DNA from: Rubellimicrobium roseum
Lineage (GTDB): Bacteria; Pseudomonadota; Alphaproteobacteria; Rhodobacterales; Rhodobacteraceae
NCBI RefSeq assembly: GCF_006152145.1
Contig: NZ_VDFV01000021.1
Coordinates: forward strand, 1-56,070
DNA length: 56,070 nucleotides
Direction of reading: 5' to 3'
The notes under the pieces are model-generated. The model was not told where the DNA came from and searched no databases. It saw nothing but the letters and a program-made list of their open reading frames with translations. Positions 12,905 to 19,113 of this stretch are shown piece after piece. Every line of letters starts with the position of its first letter. The first letter of the stretch is position 1. The translations under genes were made by a program, and so were the position numbers.

Positions 12905-13363
12905 ATGTCGGACCAGGACCTTCTCCAACTCTATTCAACTCGCATCCTGGCGCTCGCGGCCGACATCCCGCGACTGGGCCGGCTCGACGCGCCGCAGGGC
13001 ACCGCCCGGAAGCGCGCTCCGCTCTGCGGCTCCACGATCGGCGTGGAGGTGACGCTGGAGAACGGCCGCATCGCCGGCTTCGCGCAGGATGTGCGGGCCT
13101 GCGCGCTTGGGCAGGCGGCGGCCTCGGTCCTTGGCGCGACGGTCGTGGGCCTTACGCCCGACGAGGTGCGACAGGGCCGCGACGGCCTGCGCGCCATGCT
13201 GCGCGACGGGGCCGAGCCGCCGGGCGCCCCTTGGGAGGCTCTCGCCGTCTTGATCCCCGCGCGGGACCATCCGAACCGGCACGGCTCCATCCTGCTGGCC
13301 TTCGAGGCCACGATCGAGGCGCTGGAGCAGGCTGTGGGGCAGAAAAAAGCCGCCGCGACCTGA
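12905..13363 (+). CDS. Iron-sulfur cluster assembly scaffold-like protein (IscU/NifU N-domain type)
   Basis: A 152-residue SUF/IscU-like fold protein. Two cysteines of the classic scaffold triad are visible: Cys in APLCGSTI (about 41) and Cys in [15 protein letters not shown] (about 64). The third, normally near the C-terminus, is missing: no cysteine follows. Such proteins are widespread in Rhodobacterales and are annotated as Fe-S assembly proteins, but the missing ligand makes scaffold activity uncertain. The ATG at 12905 follows GAAGGGCAAACC. Confidence 0.75.
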
Positions 13364-13390
13364 AGGGCACGCGGCGGCCAGGAAAGCACC

Positions 13391-13424
13391 CCCGCCGGGA
13401 CGCGGGCCGCGATCCGCCGGCGGG
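13391..13424. terminator. Possible bidirectional terminator between convergent genes
   Basis: CCCGCCGG (13391-13398) pairs with CCGGCGGG (13417-13424), with a smaller internal GCGG/CCGC stem. It lies between the scaffold gene (ending 13363) and the small minus-strand gene (ending 13483). No T-run is present. Confidence 0.35.
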
Positions 13425-13482
13425 CAACCGGACGGACCTCCACGAAGGACGAGGCGACGCCGCTGCGGGGGCGCGGGCAGAT

Positions 13483-13602
13483 CTAGAAAAAGCCGGGCAA
13501 GGCAAGTCCCGCCACGAGCAGCACGCCCAGCGACAGCGCCCCAAGGAGATCGGACAGGAGCCCCCAATCGAAGCCGGTGGTCAGTTCATCGTCGCCGTTC
13601 AT
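13483..13602 (-). CDS. 39-residue single-pass membrane protein, LexA-box controlled
   Basis: A 40-codon frame preceded by AAGGAGGAC, an excellent Shine-Dalgarno four bases from the ATG. Codon third positions are strongly G/C like neighbouring genes. The protein has a short acidic N-terminus (MNGDDELTTGFDW), then a continuous hydrophobic stretch from about residue 14 to the end (ends ALPGFF), a single membrane helix with one aspartate inside. A perfect alphaproteobacterial LexA box lies 63-77 bp upstream of the ATG, and the next gene upstream on the same strand is recG. This suggests an SOS-induced small inner-membrane protein, by analogy with the Caulobacter division inhibitor SidA. Homology is not shown. 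No annotated family is recognised. Confidence 0.72.
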   Translation of the reverse strand: MNGDDELTTGFDWGLLSDLLGALSLGVLLVAGLALPGFF

Positions 13603-13615
13603 ACTGTCCTCCTTC

Positions 13616-13680
13616 TGTTCTCATCCGTTGCCCCTTTGTTCTCACGAGCTTTACCTTCTGTAAAGAACTTTATGAGAACA
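13616..13680 (-). promoter_or_regulatory. SOS regulatory region: LexA box plus repeated TGTTCTCA motifs
   Basis: GAACTTTATGAGAAC at 13665-13679 matches the alphaproteobacterial LexA operator GTTC-N7-GTTC exactly on the minus strand. The octamer TGTTCTCA occurs directly at 13616 and 13637 and inverted (TGAGAACA) at 13673. The second and third form an imperfect palindrome (13637-13680) around CTTTAC/GTAAAG. The cluster lies between the small membrane-protein gene and the recG stop, so it most likely drives the former. Confidence 0.78.
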
Positions 13681-13766
13681 TCGTCGCCATCGGCAAAGAA
13701 GGGCCAGATGCAATGAAGCAGGATCAGGGAGGAAGCCCAGGAGCCGGGCCCATGACGGGGTTCGGA

Positions 13767-16061
13767 CTAGCCGACCCCGATCAGACGGATGGCCCGGTCC
13801 TGCTCCATCAGCCACAGCAGGAGCCGCGCCGCCTGCCCCCGGGGCGATTCGAGGCGCGGGTCGTCATGAAGAAGCTTGCGCGCGTCGCTCTGGGCGATAG
13901 CCATGAGCCCCGTCTGCCGTTCCAGGTCGGCGATGCGGAATCGCGGCAGGCCCGACTGCGCCGTGCCGATCACGTCGCCCGCCCCGCGGATAGCAAGATC
14001 CTCTTCGGCGATGCGGAAGCCGTCCTCGCTCTCGCGCAGCAGGGTCAGCCGCCGCCTGGCCGTCTCGCCTAGGGGAGGCTCGTAGAGCAGGACGCAGGTG
14101 GACTGGGCCGAGCCGCGTCCCACCCGCCCGCGAAGCTGATGAAGCTGCGCGAGCCCGAAGGTCTCGGCCCGCTCGATGACCATGATCGAGGCGTTGGGGA
14201 CGTTCACCCCCACCTCGATGACCGTGGTCGCCACAAGAAGCGCCGTCCGCCCCTCGACGAAGGCCTGCATCGCCGCGTCCTTCTCGGCCGGCGCCAGCCG
14301 CCCGTGGACAAGGCCCACCCGTTCCCCGAGGATGGACTGGAGCTGGCGAAACCTCACCTCTGCGGCGGTCAGGTCGCTCTGGTCCGATTCCTCGACCAGG
14401 GGACAGACCCAGTAGGCCTGCCGTCCCTCGGCGATAGCGGCGCGGAGCCGCCCCACGACCTCATCGAGCCGTTCCGTCGAGGCGAGCACGGTCGTGACGG
14501 GCTTGCGACCCGGAGGCTTCTCGTCGAGCACCGACAGGTCCATGTCGCCGTACTGCGCCAGCGCAAGGCTGCGTGGGATCGGCGTCGCGGTCATCACCAG
14601 CACGTCCGCCGATGCGCCTTTGGCGCCCAGCTCCATCCGCTGCGCGACGCCGAAGCGGTGCTGCTCGTCCACCACGGCCAGGCGCAGGTCGCGGAACTCC
14701 ACGTCCTTCTGGAACAGAGCATGGGTGCCCACCAGAACGTGGATGCGCCCCTCGGCCAGGGCGGCGAGCTTGGCCGCGCGCTCGGCCCCCTTGTCGCGGC
14801 CAGTGAACAGCTCGACGGTCACGCCCGCCGCCTCGGCCAGCGGCCGGATCCCCTCGTAATGCTGCTGGGCCAGGATGCCGGTCGGCGCCATCAGCGCGCC
14901 CTGCCCGCCCGCCTCGACCGCGATCAGCAGCGCCAAGAGAGCGACCAGCGTCTTGCCCGCACCCACGTCACCCTGCAGGAGCCGGTTCATCCGCCGGGTC
15001 GAAGCCATGTCCGCCTCGATCTCGGCCACCGCACGCCGCTGCGCGCCCGTAGGTTCATAGGGCAAGGCTCCAAGCACCCGAGCCCGCAGGTCTCCGTCGC
15101 CTCGCGTCACCTGCCCGCGGGCACGCCGCGCCGTGGCCCGGGCGAGCGCCAGGGTGAGTTGATGGGCCAGAAGCTCGTCATAGGCGAGCCTGCGCCGGGC
15201 CGGCGCGTCGGGCCGCAGGTCCGGGCCGCCTTCGGGAGCGTGAGCCTGCATCAGCGCCTCACGCCAGGGTGGAAACGCCTCGCGCTCCCGCAGGCCGGGG
15301 TCGATCCATTCGGGCAGGTCGGGCGCGAGCGCCAGTGCCCCCTGTGCGGCCTTGCCCATCACCTTCTGCGAAACGCCCCCCGCTAGCGGATAGACCGGCT
15401 CGTAGCCCGGGATGGCGGCAAGCTCCTCCTCGGGCAAGATGTGGTCAGGATGCGCCATCCGGCCGACGCCATCGAAGAGCTCGACCTTGCCGCTGACGAC
15501 CCGTCGGCTGCCCAGGGGAAGGGCGCGGGCCGGCCAATCCGCCGGCGCGTGGAAGAACACGATCTGAAAGCTCGTCTGGGCGTCGGCGACGGTCACGACA
15601 TGGGGGCGGCCCTTGGCCGGGGGGGGACGGTGACGCTCCACCCGAACGGCGACCGTGACCACGGCGGGCAGCGGCACCTCTCGGATGCTCTCGCGCAGAC
15701 GCCGGTCGACGCCACCCTGCGGCAAGGTGAACAAAAGATCGCGCGGCCGTCCGAGCCCCGCGCCATCCAGGACCTGCGCCGTCTTGGGCCCAATCCCCCG
15801 AAGGCCGGTCACAGGCCCGAAGACCGGCCAGAGGATCTCGGGTCGGCCCCGGACGGAGGTGCTCGCCGCCGGCGCGCCTCCTCCCCCGGACAACCGATGC
15901 GACGTCGGCCCCGACCCGGTCGAGGCACCTGCCTGCGGGTCGGGTTTGCTGTCCGAGCCTTCTTCCACGTTGCCCAGCGAAGGCGGGCGATCCGCCTCGC
16001 TCGACGTCGGTCCCGCCGCGTTCGGCACGGCACCAGGGATGGATGGGTCGCCGCGACCCAT
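13767..16061 (-). CDS. recG: ATP-dependent DNA helicase RecG
   Basis: A 764-residue branch-migrating helicase for stalled forks and Holliday junctions. After a wedge/OB domain, helicase motifs follow: Walker A GDVGAGKT (about 370), motif II DEQH, MTATPIPRSLA, and the RecG-specific TRG region with GLAQLHQLRGRVGRG. The first about 72 residues (Pro/Ser/Gly-rich) precede the usual start (GRPEILWPVF). I kept ATG 16061 because GGAGG lies six bases upstream and it starts one base after the ligA stop (coupled translation). No convincing start exists nearer the family N-terminus. Confidence 0.96.
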   Translation of the reverse strand: MGRGDPSIPGAVPNAAGPTSSEADRPPSLGNVEEGSDSKPDPQAGASTGSGPTSHRLSGGGGAPAASTSVRGRPEILWPVFGPVTGLRGIGPKTAQVLDGAGLGRPRDLLFTLPQGGVDRRLRESIREVPLPAVVTVAVRVERHRPPPAKGRPHVVTVADAQTSFQIVFFHAPADWPARALPLGSRRVVSGKVELFDGVGRMAHPDHILPEEELAAIPGYEPVYPLAGGVSQKVMGKAAQGALALAPDLPEWIDPGLREREAFPPWREALMQAHAPEGGPDLRPDAPARRRLAYDELLAHQLTLALARATARRARGQVTRGDGDLRARVLGALPYEPTGAQRRAVAEIEADMASTRRMNRLLQGDVGAGKTLVALLALLIAVEAGGQGALMAPTGILAQQHYEGIRPLAEAAGVTVELFTGRDKGAERAAKLAALAEGRIHVLVGTHALFQKDVEFRDLRLAVVDEQHRFGVAQRMELGAKGASADVLVMTATPIPRSLALAQYGDMDLSVLDEKPPGRKPVTTVLASTERLDEVVGRLRAAIAEGRQAYWVCPLVEESDQSDLTAAEVRFRQLQSILGERVGLVHGRLAPAEKDAAMQAFVEGRTALLVATTVIEVGVNVPNASIMVIERAETFGLAQLHQLRGRVGRGSAQSTCVLLYEPPLGETARRRLTLLRESEDGFRIAEEDLAIRGAGDVIGTAQSGLPRFRIADLERQTGLMAIAQSDARKLLHDDPRLESPRGQAARLLLWLMEQDRAIRLIGVG

Positions 16062-16062
16062 C

Positions 16063-18396
<2,334 letters not shown>

Positions 18397-19113
18397 TCAG
18401 GCGCCCACGGCCAATCGCTCGGCATCGCGCGTCACAGGCTCGGGGTCCCGCAGGACGTAGCCCCGGCCCCAGACGGTCTCGATGTGGCTGTCGCCGCTGT
18501 TGGCGTTGGCCAGCTTCTTGCGCAGCTTGCAGATGAACACGTCGATGATCTTCAGCTCGGGTTCGTCCATGCCGCCATACAGATGGTTGAGGAACATCTC
18601 CTTGGTCAGCGTGGTCCCTTTGCGCAGCGAGAGGAGCTCCAGCATCTGGTACTCCTTGCCGGTCAGGTGGACCGCATGCCCCGCGACCTCGACCGTCTTG
18701 GTGTCAAGGTTCACGACGATCCGGCCCGTGCGGATCACCGACTGCGAGTGTCCCTTGGATCGGCGGATGATCGCGTGGATGCGGGCGACCAGTTCCTCGC
18801 GGTGGAAAGGCTTGGTCAGATAGTCGTCCGCCCCGAAGCCGAAGCCCTTGAGCTTGCTGTCGGTGTCGTCATCCCCCGACAGGATCAGGATCGGCGTTTC
18901 CACCTTCGCCTGGCGAAGCTGGCGAAGGACCTCGTGCCCGTTCATGTCGGGCAGGTTGAGGTCCAGAAGGATCAGGTCGTAGTCATAGAGCTTGGCGAGG
19001 TCGATCCCTTCCTCGCCCAGATCGGTCGCATAGACATTGAGGTTCGCGTGCGTGAGCATCAATTCGATGCTGCGCGAGGTTGTCGGGTCGTCTTCGACGA
19101 GCAGGACTCGCAT
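18397..19113 (-). CDS. ctrA: Cell-cycle response regulator CtrA
   Basis: A 238-residue OmpR-type response regulator. The receiver domain has Asp8/Asp9 and phospho-acceptor Asp51 ([15 protein letters not shown]) and Lys in TKPF. The winged-helix C-terminal domain contains the CtrA hallmark [17 protein letters not shown] and [23 protein letters not shown]. CtrA controls division, motility and, in Rhodobacter, gene transfer agent genes. A CtrA-type half-site pair lies 50-64 bp upstream, consistent with autoregulation. sciP lies directly upstream in the same orientation. Confidence 0.98.

Follow-up and report, generated by a model that had tools for sequence, protein, structure and literature searches.

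Does the short open reading frame (ORF) directly behind recG in the window (the whole stretch of 56,070 nt analysed here) encode a genuine protein, is it under SOS control, and does its transcript act on cell division in the manner of SidA? The original prediction, made from the sequence, described a gene of about 40 codons with an ideal Shine-Dalgarno sequence, GC-rich third codon positions and one membrane helix, lying after recG and ligA on the same strand and preceded by an exact GTTC-N7-GTTC box with two additional TGTTCTCA copies. The features of the locus are as follows, with the evidence for each in brackets.

12906..13363, plus strand: ORF that we take to be NifU/SufE-like, convergent to the small ORF, its 3' end overlapping the terminator
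13343..13379, minus strand: intrinsic terminator, a G+C-rich hairpin followed by six T (sequence, fold)
13380..13482, minus strand: 3' UTR at the place of the conserved structured RNA, starting with AUCUGCCCGCG and containing a GCGCCCCCGC/GCGGGGGUGC stem (fold)
13483..13602, minus strand: small ORF, ATG to TAG, for a predicted single-TM microprotein of 39 aa (sequence, profile, pN/pS, hydropathy)
13608..13613, minus strand: Shine-Dalgarno sequence AGGAGG, 5 nt before the ATG of the small ORF (sequence)
13627..13641, minus strand: site 2, GAACAAAGGGGCAAC, which departs from the LexA box at one position and lies in the presumed -10 region, 38 bp away from site 1
13659..13664, minus strand: -35-like TTTACA abutting site 1, a putative promoter element (sequence)
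13665..13679, minus strand: site 1, exact LexA-type box GTTCTCATAAAGTTC (exact match)
13767..16061, minus strand: context gene, presumably recG, used as tblastn query (translation)
16063..18231, minus strand: context gene, presumably ligA (translation)
18400..19113, minus strand: context gene that we take to be ctrA, its product sharing 84% identity with a CtrA-like protein from L185

The layout that had been predicted was found on re-examination of the window. The gene has the expected size and ribosome-binding site, its G+C content at codon positions 1, 2 and 3 is 0.70, 0.40 and 0.80, it follows recG and ligA on their strand by the coordinates above, and the exact box is accompanied by the two TGTTCTCA copies (13616-13623 and 13637-13644, plus strand), the second of which forms one half of the LexA-like site 2 (13641-13627).

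We searched 61 genomes with the single protein and obtained strong matches in five of the seven same-genus genomes and weak ones elsewhere. This search yielded 30 loci, 18 of them recG-linked (window included), and all 18 carried an exact box and an ORF of 32-40 aa after recG. The proteins of these 18 loci were aligned (alignment A1) and turned into a protein profile, which matched 344 of 394 family genomes (306 of the 347 of good quality), 113 of 121 genomes in the order sample (all 121 from the same family) and 3 of 240 in the class sample, all three being family members. A recG-guided recheck covered 30 genomes (27 profile-negatives and 3 weak positives); a proper recG end was located in 25 of them, including 22 profile-negatives, and the box or boxes and a hydrophobic small ORF lay directly after recG in 16 of these 22, two of which (G459 and G480) had an ORF below the hydropathy cut that was taken from the sequence by reading. 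The profile counts are thus lower limits. The locus was absent after recG in the remaining six (G427, G140, G087, G024, G085 and G015), and four of these genomes have LexA, so that an SOS system does not require it. Linkage to recG does not produce the family as an artefact, since the protein profile, searched without use of recG, and the promoter pattern alone each find the small ORF. Judged from these matches, the small ORF is core to the Rhodobacteraceae in the wide sense, the family being delimited from named relatives.

We also considered that loss of the small ORF might be tied to loss of LexA. When the two lists were compared by eye, 5 of 8 LexA-negative good-quality genomes were profile-negative, versus 36 of 339 LexA-positive ones; this association was set aside, as two of the five (G036 and G090) also had no proper recG match. 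In G090 and G036 (97% complete) the LexA domain was not found and the RecG match was only weak and Mfd-like, and a joint loss of SOS and recG is possible there.

Selection was estimated from 18 independent pairs of relatives whose sequences were equally long and 80-98.5% identical, with a resulting pN/pS of 0.17 (196 synonymous and 92 nonsynonymous differences). This value replaced a first dN/dS estimate over 944 pairs (median 0.57), most of whose weight came from pairs that were distant, saturated or misaligned. The reading frame is therefore under purifying selection, the outcome that a real gene should give in the synonymous/nonsynonymous check attached to the original prediction, and selection together with conservation in 344/394 genomes rules out a chance ORF. 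The window protein has a best 19-residue KD hydropathy of 2.1; 171 of 172 copies reach at least 1.6, a value attained by 2 of the window's 81 control ORFs of similar size (35-45 aa), which upholds the proposed membrane helix and, as judged by hydropathy alone, gives the 39-aa product the SidA-type character of a very small single-pass membrane protein. Lysine and arginine residues average 2.5 in the first 18 residues (172 copies) and are missing from the last 8 residues in 172/172, which by the positive-inside rule suggests that the N-terminus faces the cytoplasm. Near-invariant positions are D18, G21, L25, L33 and P36. Three members searched against Pfam, NCBIfam and PHROGs gave no match in any of them, and the profile met only two weak matches among solved structures (E 0.1 and 0.74), both to unrelated proteins.

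The exact box occurs twice in the 56-kb window versus 1.12 expected, which is not significant by itself. In the window's own whole genome it was counted 41 times forward and 61 times in reverse, no more than the backward pattern (42 and 60), so that box matches as such are mostly chance. The gene is raised above chance by the conservation of box and gene together, not by the box in the window alone. We scanned the upstream regions of 60 loci that had been selected by the protein profile alone (40 of the stronger family-genome matches and 20 of the weaker order-sample matches, a part of all matches) and found an exact box within 400 nt in 58 of them (exceptions L278 and L303), a frequency that disposes of a chance box; shuffled upstream stretches of 250 nt, shorter than the 400 nt scanned in the loci, contained one in 15 of 1,200. 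The site 2 pattern GAACAn6nAAC was present upstream in all 60 loci and GTTCTTTAC or GTTCTTGAC in 52, with a distance between the two sites of mostly 38 bp. In most loci the last four letters of site 2 are CAAC, a single change from the LexA consensus; it reads exactly GAAC-N7-GAAC in L213, L223, L224, L299, L310 and L319, that of L310 sitting at another spacing. GTTC-N7-GTTC is given as the Caulobacter LexA motif in the accessible part of PMC12700426; an operator of this LexA-regulon form (GTTC-N7-GTTC, or GAAC-N7-GAAC) thus stands at the promoter, exact in the window and in 58/60 relatives. From promoter, frame and conservation taken together, the product is almost certainly a LexA-controlled microprotein, and the conservation of frame and box downstream of recG that had been expected in relatives is borne out.

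A public genome collection was also scanned with the DNA pattern GTTCTNANNAAGTTCTTTACA only, yielding at least 117 stretches. Among the 117 matches listed, 110 have the C-terminal end of recG on the same strand no more than 800 nt upstream, in most cases no more than 110 nt; three others (L095, L121 and L139) are chance matches without the gene, and four (L111, L135, L138 and L193) have the small ORF with no recG alignment within the stretch examined. The genera represented among the 80 matches listed by name include Roseovarius, Sulfitobacter, Celeribacter, Ruegeria, Rhodovulum and many more. As a separate observation, the order ctrA-ligA-recG-small ORF in the window (13483-19113, minus strand) places a putative SOS gene beside that of a cell-cycle master regulator, and ctrA is also present around recG in 39/117 loci among the matches listed for this pattern.

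The original prediction overlooked a second product, a conserved multi-hairpin 3' RNA of many relatives. In most relatives a UCUGCCUGCG-like sequence comes after the stop codon, then CUGUCCC and a terminator rich in G+C; CTGCCTG was found in 81 and CTGTCCC in 75 of 109 downstream stretches, with about 5 in shuffles. Single-sequence folds of 19 tails gave a long closing stem enclosing hairpins, with the pyrimidine-rich motifs often in loops, and the fold z-score of 80 tails without terminator had a median of -2.2 (57.5% below -2; window -1.4). In an alignment-free swap test of the closing stem, applied to the 67 of 80 tails that had the anchor motif, own arms beat at least 29 of 30 swaps in 27/67 loci, with about 4 expected, and the two inner hairpins gave 13/62 and 26/74. 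CTGCCT, CTGTCC and TTGCCT were unpaired in 166 of 261 occurrences versus 2,301 of 13,665 background positions.

MAFFT alignment of all tails, or of 15, gave no consensus beyond the terminator. We built a covariance model (R1) from seven related tails (alignment A2) with the structure adjusted by hand, and searched it against 100 of the 117 listed GTTCTNANNAAGTTCTTTACA loci (786 kb). R1 matched 59 of the 100 loci at E<=1 (43 below 0.01; four of the 59 are seed sequences), and all 59 matches are in place, on the correct strand and 100-420 nt past the promoter box, with none elsewhere in the 786 kb. In the resulting 59-row alignment (A4), two-sided changes were present in 34 of 34 pairs, 90.0% of cells pair versus 62.8% when shuffled, and covariation was 0.525 versus 0.152 when shuffled (0.05-0.09 in slid controls); A4 was fitted to the model, so that pair counts and covariation lean towards it. 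The model R2 matched 39 of 100 family genomes, once each (E<=0.05, strict filters), just behind the small ORF in 30/30 comparable genomes, the other nine of the 39 not being comparable, and 1 of 142 genomes in the class sample, a family member. Further R2 runs at E<=1 gave 51 rows from 73 sources and 32 rows from 59 sources, which were not all checked singly. Stray matches were weak: R2 in L005 (122-199, E 0.0078) and, in an R1 search over nine whole genomes of which three matched, one in G012 (C3, E 0.224).

In the window itself the RNA is too diverged to be recognised by the model. Its best R2 score is 8.5 bits, which is not significant, and the RNA models found no match anywhere in its own genome; the same-genus loci L002 and L004 match R2 at 5.5e-6 and 1.2e-5. 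The window tail keeps its terminator, together with the first motif (UCUGCC) and a closing stem of 10 bp. We read this as an RNA that is a feature of much of the family and is degenerate or fast-evolving in the window, and consider it very probable that the structured RNA is a family feature; in many relatives it makes up a structured 3' UTR of a small-protein mRNA with LexA-type control. Rfam 15 gave no match at the gathering threshold in 15 loci and none at E<=1 over window positions 13200-13850. The best sub-threshold match was sX13 of Xanthomonas (RF02232), an RNA with C-rich loops, to the tail of L128 over its full length (E 0.14); at 20.2 bits versus a cut-off of 50 this tail is not a member.

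We compared the locus with known systems by description. SidA of Caulobacter crescentus is a 29-aa LexA-controlled inner-membrane protein that interacts with FtsW and stops division, according to the accessible part of PMC4211646. The present family resembles it in combining a predicted tiny inner-membrane protein with LexA-type control in an alphaproteobacterium with the GTTC-N7-GTTC motif, and differs in that neither recG linkage nor an RNA tail is described for SidA in the accessible parts of PMC4211646 and PMC12700426. A further difference, again by description, is that the profile of the new family matches only family members in the class sample of 240. The second comparison is with dinI/DinR of Klebsiella pneumoniae, in which DinI is not a membrane protein. 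There, as far as the accessible part of PMC10907235 describes it, the 3' part of a LexA-controlled small-protein mRNA yields an RNA, DinR, which represses ftsZ at the ribosome-binding site of that gene, and DinI is a modulator of RecA filaments. The small ORF and its 3' RNA are close to this pair in arrangement, place and possible ftsZ target; the ftsZ-pairing stretch of DinR, however, lies in a Klebsiella-specific region in the same part of that source, whereas the structured RNA here spans genera. The dicB/dicF operon of the Qin prophage also joins a small protein and a small RNA, both acting on cell division (accessible part of PMC10448788), but is prophage-borne and not a conserved chromosomal SOS gene. 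Because a structured 3' RNA is conserved in many relatives, the likely mode of action is changed, and moves closer to that of dinI/DinR. YneA of Bacillus and SosA of Staphylococcus, set apart from the small ORF by description, belong to other phyla and are larger, membrane-anchored proteins with extracellular parts. Both appear as SOS-induced division inhibitors in the accessible parts of PMC13396833 and PMC6851548.

A literature search over titles and the beginnings of abstracts, with most subscription papers outside its scope, returned no description of this gene or RNA. Neither is mentioned in the accessible parts of PMC6473078, PMC4809877, PMC8632094 (which describes other structured RNA motifs of Rhodobacterales) and PMC2864571, and the terms sought are absent from PMC5107571; supplementary motif or sRNA lists, outside the scope searched, may already contain an unnamed motif at this position. 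The literature passages searched, parts of their sources, likewise hold no description of an SOS division stop in Rhodobacteraceae. The locus holds a core gene for which the protein and RNA family libraries searched contain no model, and it carries exact operator sites.

The target search for the RNA covered ftsZ only, a gene picked in advance on the precedent of DinR. The RNA motif UCUGCCUG is complementary to the ftsZ ribosome-binding site (CAGGCGG) and pairs with CAGGCGGA over 8 bp, one of them G-U. CAGGCGG lies at most 25 nt before the ftsZ start in 15/15 genomes with strong RNA matches, which share ancestry at this site and are not 15 independent tests, and at 1 of 374 background starts, which are longest-ORF starts of genes around recG in related species and not 374 independent genes; counting the 138 background starts with a Shine-Dalgarno-like motif, it was found at 1. 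The motif is present at ftsZ in the window's own genome (1/1), in 4/4 same-genus genomes and, of 13 divergent relatives with the small ORF (RNA not confirmed there), in seven, and absent in the other six; among five genomes examined that lack the small ORF it is clear in one (G087) and unclear in G024, and near the ftsZ start of outgroup alphaproteobacteria it was found in 0/6. At other genes it occurs before ctrA in 1/31, ligA in 0/44 and hisI in 0/83. Counted against its own ftsZ site, the RNA has 2.27 sites of at least 7 bp, a threefold excess over both shuffled RNA (0.73) and other sites (0.76); the paired stretch, at 7-10 bp, is short, shuffled RNAs often equal the longest run, and the duplex energy against shuffled ftsZ sites has a mean z of only -0.70. 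The complementarity is suggestive of pairing with the ftsZ ribosome-binding site, and ftsZ is a tentative target at best, which we regard as doubtful.

Two other pairings were dropped: ctrA, which after one promising match held in only 1/31, and the Shine-Dalgarno sequence of the small ORF itself, which was considered by eye. Independently of the RNA, CAGGCGGACAG stands just before ftsZ (e.g., L363, L367, L368, L373 and L379) as a strongly conserved ribosome-binding site in the family; it is not near the ftsZ start in 6/6 other alphaproteobacteria, whatever its partner.

The 3' structure might instead be a tail that merely stabilises or terminates the mRNA, with the match at ftsZ a coincidence. 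The weak energy z-scores, the incomplete co-occurrence with CAGGCGG and the divergence of the RNA in the window agree with such a tail; its stems, however, vary in sequence while the unpaired C-rich motifs recur, and a terminator needs neither. We take this to be a real possibility, though less likely than not.

The reading we prefer is that the LexA-repressed transcription unit serves as a DNA-damage division brake, to which, arguing from the likeness to SidA and DinR, we give an even chance. LexA would sit on the two sites covering the presumed -35 and -10 regions, and its RecA-driven cleavage would release a transcript, whose length in the window, predicted from promoter and terminator, is about 290 nt. 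The first product would be an inner-membrane protein of about 40 residues with a cytoplasmic N-terminus, one C-terminal helix and almost no periplasmic tail, whose most likely partner is some membrane component of the division machinery, by analogy with SidA and FtsW. The second, in relatives that keep it, would be the structured 3' RNA with pyrimidine-rich loops, which probably base-pairs with ribosome-binding sites of mRNAs, ftsZ being the best candidate. The full scheme, a two-product SOS checkpoint core across Rhodobacteraceae in which the microprotein blocks the septal machinery and the RNA shuts off ftsZ translation, is speculative and rather unlikely as a whole; it adds an RNA-based second arm, directed at ftsZ, that can be tested, and if true, a protein brake and an RNA brake would share one damage-controlled transcript and be kept together across much of the family.

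For the protein, a role during damage that is unrelated to division deserves weight, namely modulation of another membrane complex such as a protease, a transporter or an envelope sensor. The sequence names no partner, and the conserved D, G, L and LP positions would suit any helix-helix contact; analogy alone argues for division, so that the evidence against this alternative is weak, and we rate it as unlikely, if by a modest degree of conviction. The microprotein could also be an SOS peptide of the TisB/DinQ type, whose hydrophobic helix would depolarise or perturb the inner membrane and slow growth with no specific inhibition of division. Toxins of this type are usually patchy in distribution and paired with an antisense RNA, whereas the small ORF is syntenic, near-universal in the family and under purifying selection as a protein. 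Its size, single helix and LexA-type boxes do fit, DinQ being an SOS-regulated toxic single-TM peptide of E. coli (accessible part of PMC3567139), and this alternative appears distinctly unlikely to us. That a regulator other than LexA binds the repeats, as the prevailing CAAC at site 2 and the near-exclusive occurrence of GTTCTNANNAAGTTCTTTACA at the recG locus (110/117 among the matches listed) might suggest, is very improbable in view of the six loci with an exact site 2, the same box form at lexA and further repair genes in the window's own genome, and a LexA DNA-binding domain in 373 of 394 family genomes.

Beyond the division brake, the box regions of the window's own genome point to further genes. 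Among 20 of them, taken for their A+T-rich cores, lexA, uvrD, parC and a UdgX-like gene, all named by eye, have a site of this form at or before them. Few of the other regions could be assigned to a gene. GAAC-N7-GAAC sites lie just upstream of parE- and parC-like genes (L062 near 1501-1559 and L078 near 1455-1511), which would place topoisomerase IV under LexA in this genome, again with names assigned by eye. Another LexA-type box of the same genome (L067, 1501-1523) stands directly before an ORF containing MADDEIILSELDDEELVAQMFDDLYDGLK.
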